This document shows, piece after piece, positions 1,665 to 5,478 of a stretch of 28,359 bases of DNA. This stretch comes from a virus. The notes under the pieces are model-generated. The model was not told the DNA's origin, did not search any database, and worked only from the letters and a program-made list of their open reading frames with translations. Made by a program: the position numbers and the translations under genes. Position 1 is the first letter of the stretch. Each line of letters starts with the position of its first letter. The DNA lies in the IMG/VR virus record IMGVR_UViG_3300042321_001640, positions 1 through 28,359 of that record; one strand, given 5' to 3'.

Positions 1665-2138
1665 TTATAATTTTCTCCAAAGTTTTCCTTCAGCAATTCT
1701 TCTTCTCAATAATCCTGCTTCTACATCACTTCCAGGATTTTTGTAAAGTTCAAGAGCAGCAGGAACTTTACCCCATTCTTTATTCTTAAGAACTCTAGTT
1801 ATGGTCACATATCCTCGACTACCATAAAAATTAGCACCAAGGTTATAAGCAAAAGACAATAAAGCACCGCGCTGATAATCATTCATCTCACTCCAATAAG
1901 GTATTTGTTTCAGTGCTGAAAGAAATTCATTTTGTATCTGCCAATCAAACAATTCATCTGCTTCTTTCTGAGTAATCTTTTCTCCTAACTTAAAAGGACT
2001 TCCATCCTTCTTACGAGTGCTTCCCCATCCTATAGTATAAGGTTTTCCTTTAGTATAAGGATCTGGATATGCTACTAATTTACATTTTTCAAATTCTTTA
2101 ATGAGTTCTATTCCTTCTTTCAGAATAGAACTTTCTAC
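1665..2138 (-). CDS. GH24 phage lysozyme domain in the -1 frame (frameshift product)
   Basis: This frame is open from G2138 to the stop at 1665 and encodes 157 residues of a T4-lysozyme-family (GH24) domain. The segment KEFEKCKLVAYPDPY, then PYTIGWGS, gives Glu17, Asp26 and Thr35 of the extension, matching the catalytic Glu-Asp-Thr order with the nine-residue Glu-Asp spacing of T4 lysozyme. Further on come ITQKEADELFDWQ and YQRGALLSFAYNLG, both typical GH24 elements. There is no ATG in this frame before the catalytic residues. The only non-ATG start that gives a separate ORF (TTG at 1952) would delete the active site. Translation therefore most likely enters by a -1 slip from the C39-like gene at 2138-2144, giving a 388-aa fusion. 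The alternative is a sequencing indel or a broken gene. Confidence 0.7.
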   Translation of the reverse strand, partial: VESSILKEGIELIKEFEKCKLVAYPDPYTKGKPYTIGWGSTRKKDGSPFKLGEKITQKEADELFDWQIQNEFLSALKQIPYWSEMNDYQRGALLSFAYNLGANFYGSRGYVTITRVLKNKEWGKVPAALELYKNPGSDVEAGLLRRRIAEGKLWRKL

Positions 2139-2144
2139 TTTTTT
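2104..2144 (-). other. dnaX-type -1 programmed ribosomal frameshift signal
   Basis: The minus strand reads GTA AAA AAG TAG in the peptidase frame, so the heptamer A AAA AAG (2144-2138) is in slippery phase and is followed directly by the stop. Five bases after it comes a perfect 10-bp stem, AGTTCTATTC with GAATAGAACT (arms 2132-2123 and 2113-2104), with a 9-base loop. Twelve bases before the heptamer is GGGGAAG, an SD-like stimulator. All three elements match the E. coli dnaX arrangement. The -1 frame after the slip is exactly the lysozyme frame. Confidence 0.72.
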
Positions 2145-2830
2145 ACATCAAAGATTCTTCCCCATCCAGTCCTATCTTTTCCTTTCTCTAACCAACGATA
2201 CATCAGATCAGACTTTTTGTAAACAGCACCTTTGCCATTTGTTGCAGGACCAGTATATCCATCATTCAGAGAACCATAAGGATCATTTACCACATAATCT
2301 TCACCCTTCTTACCGATGACTACAACCATGTGCCCACCAGAAGGAGCAGATAGAGTACCCCTGTGATAGATCCCGATAACAACAGGTCTCCCAGCAGCAA
2401 GCTCACGATCAAGATCAGCAAAAGAAAGATTATAACTAAAGTGTGACTTAACTCCATAACCTTCCAGAACTTTTGTCTGAACGGTATGATCAGTTGTGTC
2501 ACCAATTGCAAATACTTTCTGAATATAAGAATCATCACCCTTTGCTCCCTTAAGAGTCCCTGGTTTAAAGTATTCCAGACACATCGCACAAGAAGATGAA
2601 TTACAGGTTCTTTGAGCATCTCTGTAATTATCTGTTTGTGGATAATAAGGAACTGCGAGAACACCAGGAACTGCTGGTTTTGTTCTGAAAATACGAACCC
2701 AGTTTGAAGTATCATCAATCAAATCTGGATTCTTATCTGCAAGATCCACTTCAAGTTGCTCTACTGCAGCAACGTGTTTTGGATTATTAGGATCGAAATG
2801 TTGAAAAAAGTTATGAAGATCAATTTTCAT
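2135..2830 (-). CDS. C39-like papain-fold peptidase, first part of a peptidase-lysozyme fusion
   Basis: It starts at ATG 2830 after GGGATAAT and encodes 231 residues in the zero frame. Residues 1-50 are a helical leader (HFDPNNPKHVAAVEQLEVDL) and residues 60-200 a C39-family fold. Visible catalytic candidates are Cys76 in TCNSSSCAM, His167 in SGGHMVVVIG and Asp183 in VNDPYGS. Stand-alone C39-like domains in phages are associated with cutting cell-wall peptides, so the likely substrate is the peptidoglycan cross-link; that is inference. The frame ends in the slippery codons AAA AAG before TAG, where a -1 shift would add a GH24 lysozyme. Together they would cut both peptide and glycan. The 64-aa gene lies 33 bases upstream. 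Confidence 0.8.
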   Translation of the reverse strand: MKIDLHNFFQHFDPNNPKHVAAVEQLEVDLADKNPDLIDDTSNWVRIFRTKPAVPGVLAVPYYPQTDNYRDAQRTCNSSSCAMCLEYFKPGTLKGAKGDDSYIQKVFAIGDTTDHTVQTKVLEGYGVKSHFSYNLSFADLDRELAAGRPVVIGIYHRGTLSAPSGGHMVVVIGKKGEDYVVNDPYGSLNDGYTGPATNGKGAVYKKSDLMYRWLEKGKDRTGWGRIFDVKK

Positions 2831-2863: not shown

Positions 2864-3058
2864 TTAGTATTTCTCACCAATATATTCAAGAGAAAAAATA
2901 TCATGCTCCTCAATTTTAGGATCTAACCATTCATTAAATTCTTGTTGAATTGAATAAGCATTATGATATTCATGCTCCTCATGAATATCACAAAGAACAT
3001 GAATACGTTCTATTGCCCAATCATGATTAATACGAAGAGTTTCAATTAAAGTTTCCAT
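2864..3058 (-). CDS. Small acidic protein, unknown function (64 aa)
   Basis: It starts at ATG 3058, which lies inside the last codons of the nuclease-like gene (17-base overlap), and begins METLIETLRINHDWAIERIH. The protein is rich in Glu, His and Ile and predicted mostly helical, with a cluster of His and Glu near residues 22-32 (CDIHEEHEYHNAY) that could bind metal. No family is recognised. The overlap with the gene before and the short gap to the peptidase gene after suggest co-transcription. It could be a chance ORF, but the tight overlap favours a gene. Confidence 0.6.
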   Translation of the reverse strand: METLIETLRINHDWAIERIHVLCDIHEEHEYHNAYSIQQEFNEWLDPKIEEHDIFSLEYIGEKY

Positions 3059-3470
3059 AGTCTTTTTTTAGATACCTGCCTAGGATATTGCTATTGTAGT
3101 ATGCTGGACTACCATCGTCAAGTGCTTCCTTCAACACATTATTTAAAAAGAGTTGCTTTGTTTCTTCATAATTACAATCACCTCTTGTCTTATGAAGACT
3201 TATAATTTCTCTAGTAAAAAATTCTTTACCATATTTTTTAATATCTTCTTTAAGTTCTGGGCAAGAACCATAATACTTTTTCCAATCAGATTCTTGTTTA
3301 ACTTTTCTTTTTTTTCCTGGAGGAGTTCTAAAAGACCAAAAATATTTCCTACCCCAATACTTTCTTTGAGTCTTAGAACAAATTATTAAATATACAAATC
3401 CAAAATAGTCTTGAATATCTTCAGTTTCAAAAACTTTTCCTTTGAATCTCCAAGGATTCTCATAGCTCAT
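3042..3470 (-). CDS. GIY-YIG-like nuclease of marine T4-like phages
   Basis: It starts at ATG 3470, 142 aa. Features that resemble the GIY-YIG fold: FGFVYLIICSKTQRKYWGRK supplies the aromatic strand pair and the Arg/Lys of the active-site region. Then come SDWKKYYGSCPELKEDIKKY, the phrase EFFTREIISLH with the usual Arg-Glu spacing, and a late Glu/Asn segment (CNYEETKQLF) where the metal-binding Glu would lie. Close relatives are widespread in marine T4-like phages as putative endonucleases. Homing-endonuclease-like activity, host DNA degradation or recombination are all possible; the sequence does not decide. No flanking intron or split gene is visible. A GATAAATA late-like box precedes it. 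Confidence 0.72.
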   Translation of the reverse strand: MSYENPWRFKGKVFETEDIQDYFGFVYLIICSKTQRKYWGRKYFWSFRTPPGKKRKVKQESDWKKYYGSCPELKEDIKKYGKEFFTREIISLHKTRGDCNYEETKQLFLNNVLKEALDDGSPAYYNSNILGRYLKKDYGNFN

Positions 3471-3575: not shown

Positions 3576-4553
3576 TCAATGCTTTCTTGATTCACTTACA
3601 TAATACTCAATGATGTCATCCCAAGTGTACTCAGAAAGATCATATCCTTCTTCTAAAAGATCATCTACCCATTCTGAAACTTCTTCAGCAAAAATATAAT
3701 TTTGATATTCTTCAATAATTAAACCAACAGCAGATTTATCCATTTCTAACATGATATAATGTGCTTCTTCGAGACTATCTGCATGACCACGACCAATCAA
3801 GTAATCTAAAAGAATATCATAAGGTTCATAATCATATGATTGTTTTAAAGTTGAGTTTTTTTGCATAGTTGTTGAAGTAGCAGTTGGTTTTGTTGTTGAT
3901 GGTGTTGCTGCTTTAAATGCATTTGGATTTTGAGTTAGTGATTGATTGCCTAATTTCAATTTTGCAACATCAGGCGATTGAACTGAAGGTGAATTCATAG
4001 GAAGTCTAGACTTCATATCTTTCATTAAAGGATTATCAGTTTGTTGAGTTCCACGAATTCTTGCTCGTTCAGCAGCAGCACTAGCAAGTTTTTGATTTGC
4101 CAATTCCCATGTTGATTTACCAGTTTCTTCTGCACCTTTAATATTACCAGTCTTTATTTGTTGCTTATACAATCCCATTCCACCTTTAATCTTATCTGCA
4201 GTTGATGCAGATGCTGATGAGGTTGATTTTGGTTTTGCTGCTTCTGGTTTTGGAGGTCTTGGTGTGGGTACTGCTGATGGAGTTGGTTTTTCTGCTTCTG
4301 GTTTTGAAGGTGTTGTTGGAGGCGTTGCTTCTGGTTTTGGAGAATCTTTCTTTGTAGCATCTATGGTTGCTTTAGATTGCCAACCATAATCCTTTCCAGT
4401 CCAAACTTTTGTTCCTATACCGGGAAGAGTTCTAGTTTCTCCAGGTTTAGATCCTGGTTTTTCACCTTTCCAAACAGTCTGTGGATTTTGCCATCCATAA
4501 TTACCACCAATCCAGACTTTTCCCCCAGGGCCTATTTCTCCAAGTTTTGGCAT
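3576..4553 (-). CDS. Modular virion-like protein with GWQ repeats and acidic C-terminal modules (325 aa)
   Basis: It starts at ATG 4553 behind a TATAAATA late promoter. The N-terminus has two copies of a short repeat, VWIGGNYGWQ (13-22) and VWTGKDYGWQ (50-59). Residues of about 70-110 are a Pro/Lys/Thr/Glu linker. The middle is Ala/Lys-rich. The last 86 residues hold two acidic helical modules: DILLDYLIGRGHADSLEEAH (about 246-265) and LLEEGYDLSEYTWDDIIEYY (about 300-319). Both modules recur, in the opposite order, in the next gene upstream (4642-5478). No enzyme motif is visible. Late promoter, linker and shared modules suggest a head or ejected protein, which is inference. Confidence 0.78.
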   Translation of the reverse strand: MPKLGEIGPGGKVWIGGNYGWQNPQTVWKGEKPGSKPGETRTLPGIGTKVWTGKDYGWQSKATIDATKKDSPKPEATPPTTPSKPEAEKPTPSAVPTPRPPKPEAAKPKSTSSASASTADKIKGGMGLYKQQIKTGNIKGAEETGKSTWELANQKLASAAAERARIRGTQQTDNPLMKDMKSRLPMNSPSVQSPDVAKLKLGNQSLTQNPNAFKAATPSTTKPTATSTTMQKNSTLKQSYDYEPYDILLDYLIGRGHADSLEEAHYIMLEMDKSAVGLIIEEYQNYIFAEEVSEWVDDLLEEGYDLSEYTWDDIIEYYVSESRKH

Positions 4554-4641: not shown

Positions 4642-5478
4642 TCACCTTTCACCACGCATATGTCTTTCAGATTCTCTTGCTTTTTGAAGTGCCTGACTAG
4701 TATTTTGTTTTCCTGGAATATAAGTATGGGCAGATCCAGATTTTCTTTCATTCTCTTTATTAAACTTTTTCTGAAGATATTTTGCTCTTCTAGTTTCTTC
4801 AATAATACTCTCTCTCCACTCATCATTCATATTTACCATCATGGCAAGTGCTTCTTCCTCAGTTTCAGCATATCCTTCATCAAGAAGATAACCTTTAATA
4901 ACATCAAAAATATCAAAATCTTGATTTAATCCATAAGGATTTCTTTCTTGTGATGGTTTAGATGGTTGGGGTTTTGCTGTTTGTGGTTTTCTTGGACTTG
5001 GAATACTACCTGCCGCCTCTCTACCTTGTTGTAAAGCATGACCAGCCCATTCTCTACCTTTACCCCCAAGAAGAGCCTGATCAGCTGCTGCTGCTAATCC
5101 CACCCATGGTAAAACATTACCAGTTTTTGCAAGTATTTCCTTGGTTGTCTGTTTTGCTCCAGGAATAAATTTAGGTCCTTCTTTAGTTTGTTTAACTGAT
5201 CCTTGCCAAGCAGTTTTTATAGCACCTTTTCCAGATTCCAGTGCTTTACCAGCAACTGTTTTTAATACACTTCCTAAACCACCTTCACTAAGATACTCTT
5301 CATAGAGTTCATCATAAGTATACTCACTTAAATCATATCCTTCTTCAACTAATTCATCAATTACTTGTAGAAATTCTTGAATATTTTCTTGCTCTTGTAA
5401 ATCACCAGTACAATTATTATAGATAGAAACATAAGATTCTATTAAAGATCTACAGTTTCCGGCAGTTAATCTTTCCAT
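4642..5478 (-). CDS. Modular virion-like protein with acidic modules and an Ala/Gly segment (278 aa)
   Basis: It starts at ATG 5478. The acidic module ELVEEGYDLSEYTYDELYEE lies at about 42-61. A Lys/Gly/Thr-rich region follows, with a moderately hydrophobic stretch NVLPWVGLAAAADQALLGG (121-139). A Pro/Lys/Gln linker spans 160-180, and a second acidic module begins DIFDVIKGYLLDEGYAETEE (189-208) and continues EALAMMVNMNDEWRESIIEE. The tail is basic. The N-terminus contains SLIE/S, which fits the [LI]xE pattern cut by T4 prohead protease; this is weak alone. The same two modules occur in reverse order in the 3576-4553 protein. The function is unknown; a packaged or ejected virion protein is the best inference. 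Confidence 0.77.
   Translation of the reverse strand: MERLTAGNCRSLIESYVSIYNNCTGDLQEQENIQEFLQVIDELVEEGYDLSEYTYDELYEEYLSEGGLGSVLKTVAGKALESGKGAIKTAWQGSVKQTKEGPKFIPGAKQTTKEILAKTGNVLPWVGLAAAADQALLGGKGREWAGHALQQGREAAGSIPSPRKPQTAKPQPSKPSQERNPYGLNQDFDIFDVIKGYLLDEGYAETEEEALAMMVNMNDEWRESIIEETRRAKYLQKKFNKENERKSGSAHTYIPGKQNTSQALQKARESERHMRGER

Follow-up and report, generated by a model that had tools for sequence, protein, structure and literature searches.

A predicted programmed -1 ribosomal frameshift between the C39-like peptidase and GH24 lysozyme frames of cyanophages

We propose that cyanophages use programmed -1 ribosomal frameshifting to fuse a GH24 lysozyme onto a C39-like peptidase. Based on comparative evidence, and with no protein measured, we assign this reading a probability of about 0.92. 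The locus lies within a window of 28,359 nucleotides, meaning the whole stretch of DNA that was analyzed (IMG/VR record IMGVR_UViG_3300042321_001640, positions 1 to 28,359). It represents part of the genome of a T4-like cyanophage, with genes for DNA polymerase, a DnaB-like helicase, UvsX, the clamp loader, NrdA, NrdB, and primase. The original prediction had described a peptidase frame of 231 amino acids ending in GTA AAA AAG TAG, a heptamer in slippery phase, and a perfect stem shortly after it, and all of these were read from the sequence as described:

2830-2135, minus strand: 0-frame gene for the 231-aa Peptidase_C39_2 protein, with its stop TAG at 2137-2135 and the 3' end GTA AAA AAG TAG
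2163-2157, minus strand: GGGGAAG, proposed as an internal Shine-Dalgarno sequence, 12 bases before the heptamer
2144-2138, minus strand: slippery heptamer A AAA AAG, in slippery phase within GTA AAA AAG TAG
2133..2137, minus strand: 5-nt spacer TAGAA between heptamer and helix, containing the 0-frame stop
2123..2132, minus strand: 5' arm of the stem, AGTTCTATTC, beginning 5 bases 3' of the heptamer; the two arms form 10 perfect pairs around a 9-base loop
2104..2113, minus strand: 3' arm of the stem, GAATAGAACT, which also codes for G-I-E-L at the beginning of the GH24 domain
1665..2138, minus strand: -1-frame extension of 157 aa (VESSILKEG...LWRKL) plus stop, open from the heptamer; fusion product 388 aa
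1689..2099, minus strand: GH24 domain (Phage_lysozyme, PF00959; Pfam 1.2e-19, 125/125 positions; PDB lysozyme matches)

In the proposed mechanism, a ribosome on the peptidase gene would reach A AAA AAG with two lysine codons in its P and A sites and would meet the stem-loop, about 5 nt downstream, at the same moment. The majority of ribosomes would be expected to read TAG and release the 231-aa C39-like peptidase. A minority would move back by one base and so avoid the stop; they would then unfold the stem and translate GH24 as well, giving a 388-aa peptidase-lysozyme fusion that is likely the endolysin. It is inferred that ribosomes and not RNA polymerase slip and that both proteins accumulate; the fusion as the cause of lysis, the importance of the product ratio, and the fixed ratio supposed in the original prediction are likewise inferences.

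The 231-aa protein matched PF13529 (Peptidase_C39_2) in Pfam from end to end (143/143 positions, 1e-13), and C76, H167, and D183 were invariant among 22 diverse homologues, which meets the Cys-His-Asp requirement for a C39-like peptidase. Its fold model weakly resembled papain-like and C39 peptidases; because the fold models were mediocre (mean pLDDT 69-71), these matches are taken as weak support only. Hundreds of relatives were present in viral contigs and 105 in annotated phage records, all 105 of which were from Synechococcus phages or cyanophages. Elsewhere in the window, an ORF at 3042-3470 (minus strand) matched a PHROG named NAD synthetase and also homing endonucleases, and the name is probably wrong because an S-CAM7 record notes the relative as GIY-YIG. 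The neighboring ORFs at 3576-4553 and 4642-5478 (minus strand) both matched phrog_3708, of unknown function, and are possibly a tandem duplication.

In the -1 frame, the catalytic residues E, D, and T appear in the order required of GH24 (KEFE...AYPD...YTIG). Together with the PF00959 match, this bears out the expectation that the shifted frame encodes a GH24 domain with no ATG before its catalytic residues. The earliest ATG, GTG, or TTG in this frame is a TTG at 1952, which lies 3' of the catalytic Glu/Asp/Thr region. Across eight pairs, dN/dS of GH24 in the -1 frame ranged from 0.03 to 0.57 and, judged by these ratios, the domain is under purifying selection in that frame. A programmed frameshift calls for a conserved and directly accessible -1 frame, and the frame was open in all cases with dN/dS below 1, its expression being inferred.

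Within the sensitivity of Pfam, PF00959 and PF13529 each occurred at one locus in the S-PM2 genome and in several large relatives. Because these genomes have a single GH24 and a single C39-like domain, the peptidase-lysozyme fusion is the likely endolysin; that it acts on peptidoglycan is an inference. In both S-PM2 (L003:2460-2678) and S-CAM7 (L010:2499-2717), the 72-aa "lysin" of the annotation starts at an internal codon and is without the catalytic Glu. The true lysin coding region in these two phages begins at the frameshift site, and the proposed frameshift would explain why the lysin was annotated as a truncated fragment and the peptidase as hypothetical.

To compare junctions across relatives, we defined the frameshift class by an in-phase A AAA AAG followed by GH24 in the -1 frame; it comprised 97 distinct junctions from viral contigs. 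Counts rest on distinct junction sequences because some contigs occur twice in the totals. The relatives were divided among this arrangement (119 loci in the first set), an ATGA overlap that gives the lysozyme its own start, and one continuous gene. Some sister lineages had a GTGA overlap, and in other relatives GH24 was located elsewhere, for example 8 kb away in the L137 genome. On the peptidase tree the junction classes were interleaved, and the well supported branches imply five or more changes for the ATGA junctions. Many ATGA-class lysozymes (L057-L089, e.g., L062 from 3190) carried about 55 additional N-terminal residues (SIKFxDAVKNHKDLPHQNDAW) before GH24, whose role is unknown.

This distribution bears on whether the frame break is real. 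An indel introduced by sequencing or assembly would also separate the two frames, as would the decay of a gene broken by mutation; errors are common in homopolymer runs, and some relatives do have continuous frames. However, the window junction was unchanged in two other metagenome contigs (L012 and L013, 100% peptidase identity), and the same frame break recurred in divergent surroundings at about 150 loci, including two separate records of the cultured phage S-PM2. In addition, dN/dS was well below 1 on both sides of the junction. On the basis of this recurrence and purifying selection, we rejected an indel or decay, and the missing or extra base that could have overturned the original prediction was not supported. 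In two lineages (L149; L171 and L221-L224), as in L225, A7 replaces A6 and the frame is continuous, with the stem kept; these junctions represent either a real fusion or a homopolymer error.

An in-phase slippery heptamer of the form X XXY YYZ, followed by a 3' stimulatory structure, is required of a bacterial -1 programmed frameshift signal, and the heptamer requirement is met here. By itself, an in-frame A AAA AAG is not uncommon, with 5 occurrences among 8,183 codons; what stands out is its position at the end of a gene, with a stem and an open -1 frame. The search of homologues for the same heptamer that had been suggested at the outset returned A AAA AAG at 119/119 loci of the first set with a -1-frame GH24, preceded by the codon GTA, GCA, ATA, or GAA (Val, Ala, Ile, or Glu). 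Elsewhere in the same genes, Lys-Lys pairs were mostly written T AAG AAG, and codon usage in these genes gives an estimated chance of roughly 0.08 per independent case for the pattern at Val/Ala-Lys-Lys. Because the heptamer belongs to the class definition, a scan of loci irrespective of the heptamer provides the fair test, and it found no open -1-frame GH24 lacking both a slip site and an ATGA or GTGA start. These patterns indicate that the heptamer is under selection. In the S-CAM7 group (L010:2180-2260, L172, and L173), A AAA AAG is replaced by T TTT TTT within a T8 run, with a stem 5 nt downstream.

The stimulatory structure of -1 frameshift signals is expected about 5-8 nt downstream of the slip site (PMC4066793). 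This requirement is met at 5 nt in the window; in the family as a whole, the distance from the heptamer to the start of the helix ranges from +2 to +8 nt. When random positions of the window were examined, 0.2% had a perfect Watson-Crick helix of at least 10 pairs starting in the same zone, and synonymous recoding of the protein produced such a helix in 0.9% of cases. Minimum free energy z-scores were tried as a stem test; they were noisy and separated the classes poorly, with some ATGA junctions and many fusions also scoring, and a test restricted to the helix close to the slip site was therefore used instead.

With the latter test, the stem exceeded the synonymous-codon null (p<=0.05) in 84 of the 97 distinct frameshift-class junctions, the helix averaging -18.9 kcal/mol vs -9.8 kcal/mol in synonymous recodings of the -1-frame protein. 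Significant stems were also present in 7/7 fusions with the heptamer, 3/3 junctions of the S-CAM7 type, and 2/2 A7 fusions, but in only 2/14 fusions without the heptamer and, under the same recoding test, in 0/23 ATGA junctions. This contrast between classes, together with the invariant heptamer, the covariation of the stem, and the absence of an indel, supports the central claim of the original prediction, namely a programmed -1 frameshift fusing the peptidase to GH24. No significant simple stem was found in the remaining 13/97 frameshift-class junctions, and at least two weak-stem junctions (L002 and L125) contain an in-frame ATG. The junctions L002:2185-2205, L125, and L138 combine an A-run with an ATGA overlap, the run being A AAA AAG but A AAA AAA in L138; L002 and L125, without a significant stem, look as if they stood between frameshifting and reinitiation.

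Under reinitiation, ribosomes would terminate at TAG and begin again close by, using a non-standard start codon, to produce a separate lysozyme. ATGA or GTGA overlaps are indeed used in sister lineages, and a GTG, TTG, or ATG is present in the linker of 36/97 junctions. In the other 61/97, no such codon lies ahead of the GH24 start. Moreover, reinitiation needs neither A AAA AAG, which is missing from most ATGA relatives, nor the stem, which is absent from all 23 of them, and we consider it very improbable.

The position and pairing of the stem were variable. The 5' arm stays close to the slip site, and the 3' arm occupies three registers, one codon apart, along the start of GH24, with at least 19 changes of pairing register on the GH24 tree. 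Covariation of the stem in homologues, proposed as a check, was upheld in registers 13 and 16, where paired cells made up a larger share and double changes were more numerous than in any of 1,000 shuffles, but not in register 10, where covariation was not in excess of the 1,000 shuffles. The window's own register is among those with covarying pairs. Because the shuffles take no account of relatedness, the difference between the junction classes carries more weight. The stem is rebuilt rather than inherited, and its sequence is not conserved.

The slip site and the stem also bear on transcriptional slippage, in which RNA polymerase would add an A in the A6 run so that part of the mRNA became continuous, with identical protein products. 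The homopolymer at the junction, the A7 found in the genomes of two lineages, and the T8 run of S-CAM7 are compatible with this, and a T8 run is long enough for slippage. An A6 run, however, is short for efficient slippage by bacterial polymerases. A longer run would be an easy adaptation, yet A6 followed by G persists, and a stem a few nucleotides downstream, whose presence tracks the slip site, fits ribosomes. We therefore regard polymerase slippage as unlikely for the family and retain ribosomal frameshifting as the preferred reading; in the S-CAM7 group, polymerase slippage is a fair alternative.

A further set of relatives carries the site in reverse polarity. L008, L009, L197-L207, and L226 are continuous fusion genes with an in-frame A AAA AAG and a stem, and in these loci a -1 slip meets TGA after one codon. 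In the ACG-2014f isolates analyzed and in L205-L207, the slipped frame reads AAA AAA GTC TGA (K K V stop), and the stem lies 5-6 nt downstream. L226, which belongs to a different part of the family, shares this arrangement; taking L226 and the ACG-2014f isolates together, the stem lies at 5-7 nt. Such a site is predicted to yield a truncated peptidase. Because both polarities occur, production of both proteins may be what selection keeps, although two-protein output is, on the gene structures, not universal, since plain fusions without the heptamer exist.

Among known systems, the closest comparison is E. coli dnaX, where, as in the window, A AAA AAG is followed after about 5 nt by a stem-loop. 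The dnaX-type layout invoked originally is thus matched in these two elements, but not in the third, an upstream Shine-Dalgarno sequence. GGGGAAG is not conserved in the family, and its pairing with the 3' end of 16S rRNA, averaging -6.47 kcal/mol in frameshift junctions, is no better than that of the same Gly-Arg codons in ATGA junctions (-6.41 kcal/mol). By conservation and by anti-Shine-Dalgarno pairing relative to ATGA relatives, the tripartite cassette of dnaX is therefore incomplete, and GGGGAAG probably represents mere Trp-Gly-Arg codons and has not been shown to be part of the device. In E. coli dnaX, a slip leads to a stop one codon later, a polarity matched by the ACG-2014f-type relatives, whereas a slip in the window gives the longer product; both polarities of dnaX have been reported, in different bacteria (PMC5009743). 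The cyanophage system further differs from E. coli dnaX in that its stem sequence is free to be rebuilt and its product is a lysis enzyme.

The tail assembly chaperones of the lambda G/GT type likewise use, in a phage, a -1 shift at the end of the upstream gene to make a minor, C-terminally extended product, and A AAA AAG is among the heptamers used in such frameshifts (PMC3483164). The proteins are unrelated, however, and the window joins two catalytic domains of a probable endolysin. For the endolysins CTP1L and Lys170, one gene gives full-length and shorter forms acting together (PMC4777826). There, a ribosome binding site and start codon inside the gene are used, and the C terminus is common to both forms, whereas the forms predicted here have the N terminus in common; an N-terminally truncated form from an internal start is not supported in the window, where no ATG, GTG, or TTG precedes 1952 in the -1 frame. 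The fused cyanophage proteins of PHROG 3617 contain the same two domains, matching the peptidase and GH24 parts of the window, but are encoded by a continuous gene, whereas the window requires a frameshift for the same product.

Known phage frameshifts mostly concern tail assembly and capsid proteins. The PRFect paper (PMC10885494) counts lysins among the genes with a known frameshift and cites for this Shearman, Jury and Gasson (1994), on a lactococcal phage lysin of two overlapping genes; its host is Gram-positive, and no relation to the cyanophage family has been shown. Because of this older lysin, the statement that no phage endolysin made in this way has been described needs care. For cyanophages, we found no description of endolysin frameshifting in the literature (subscription papers being mostly outside our coverage). 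The mechanism is of a known kind; its use for a cyanophage endolysin and the range of variants appear to be new.

One tentative possibility is that selection acts on the amount of peptidase made relative to two-domain endolysin, and that the site could tie enzyme dose to the translation state of the host, for example through the supply or modification of tRNA-Lys. We raise it because the recoding site has been kept despite a changed heptamer, a rebuilt stem, and reversed polarity, alongside lineages in which an ATGA overlap or plain gene fusion has taken its place.

If the frameshift operates as proposed, recoding would be needed to make what is probably the lysis enzyme of a widespread group of cyanophages. 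In S-PM2, the shifted frame holds the one GH24 gene identified within the sensitivity of Pfam. The family, with its stem variants, slip-site swaps, and polarity reversals, offers a natural series for the evolution of frameshift signals in phages that can be cultivated in the laboratory.
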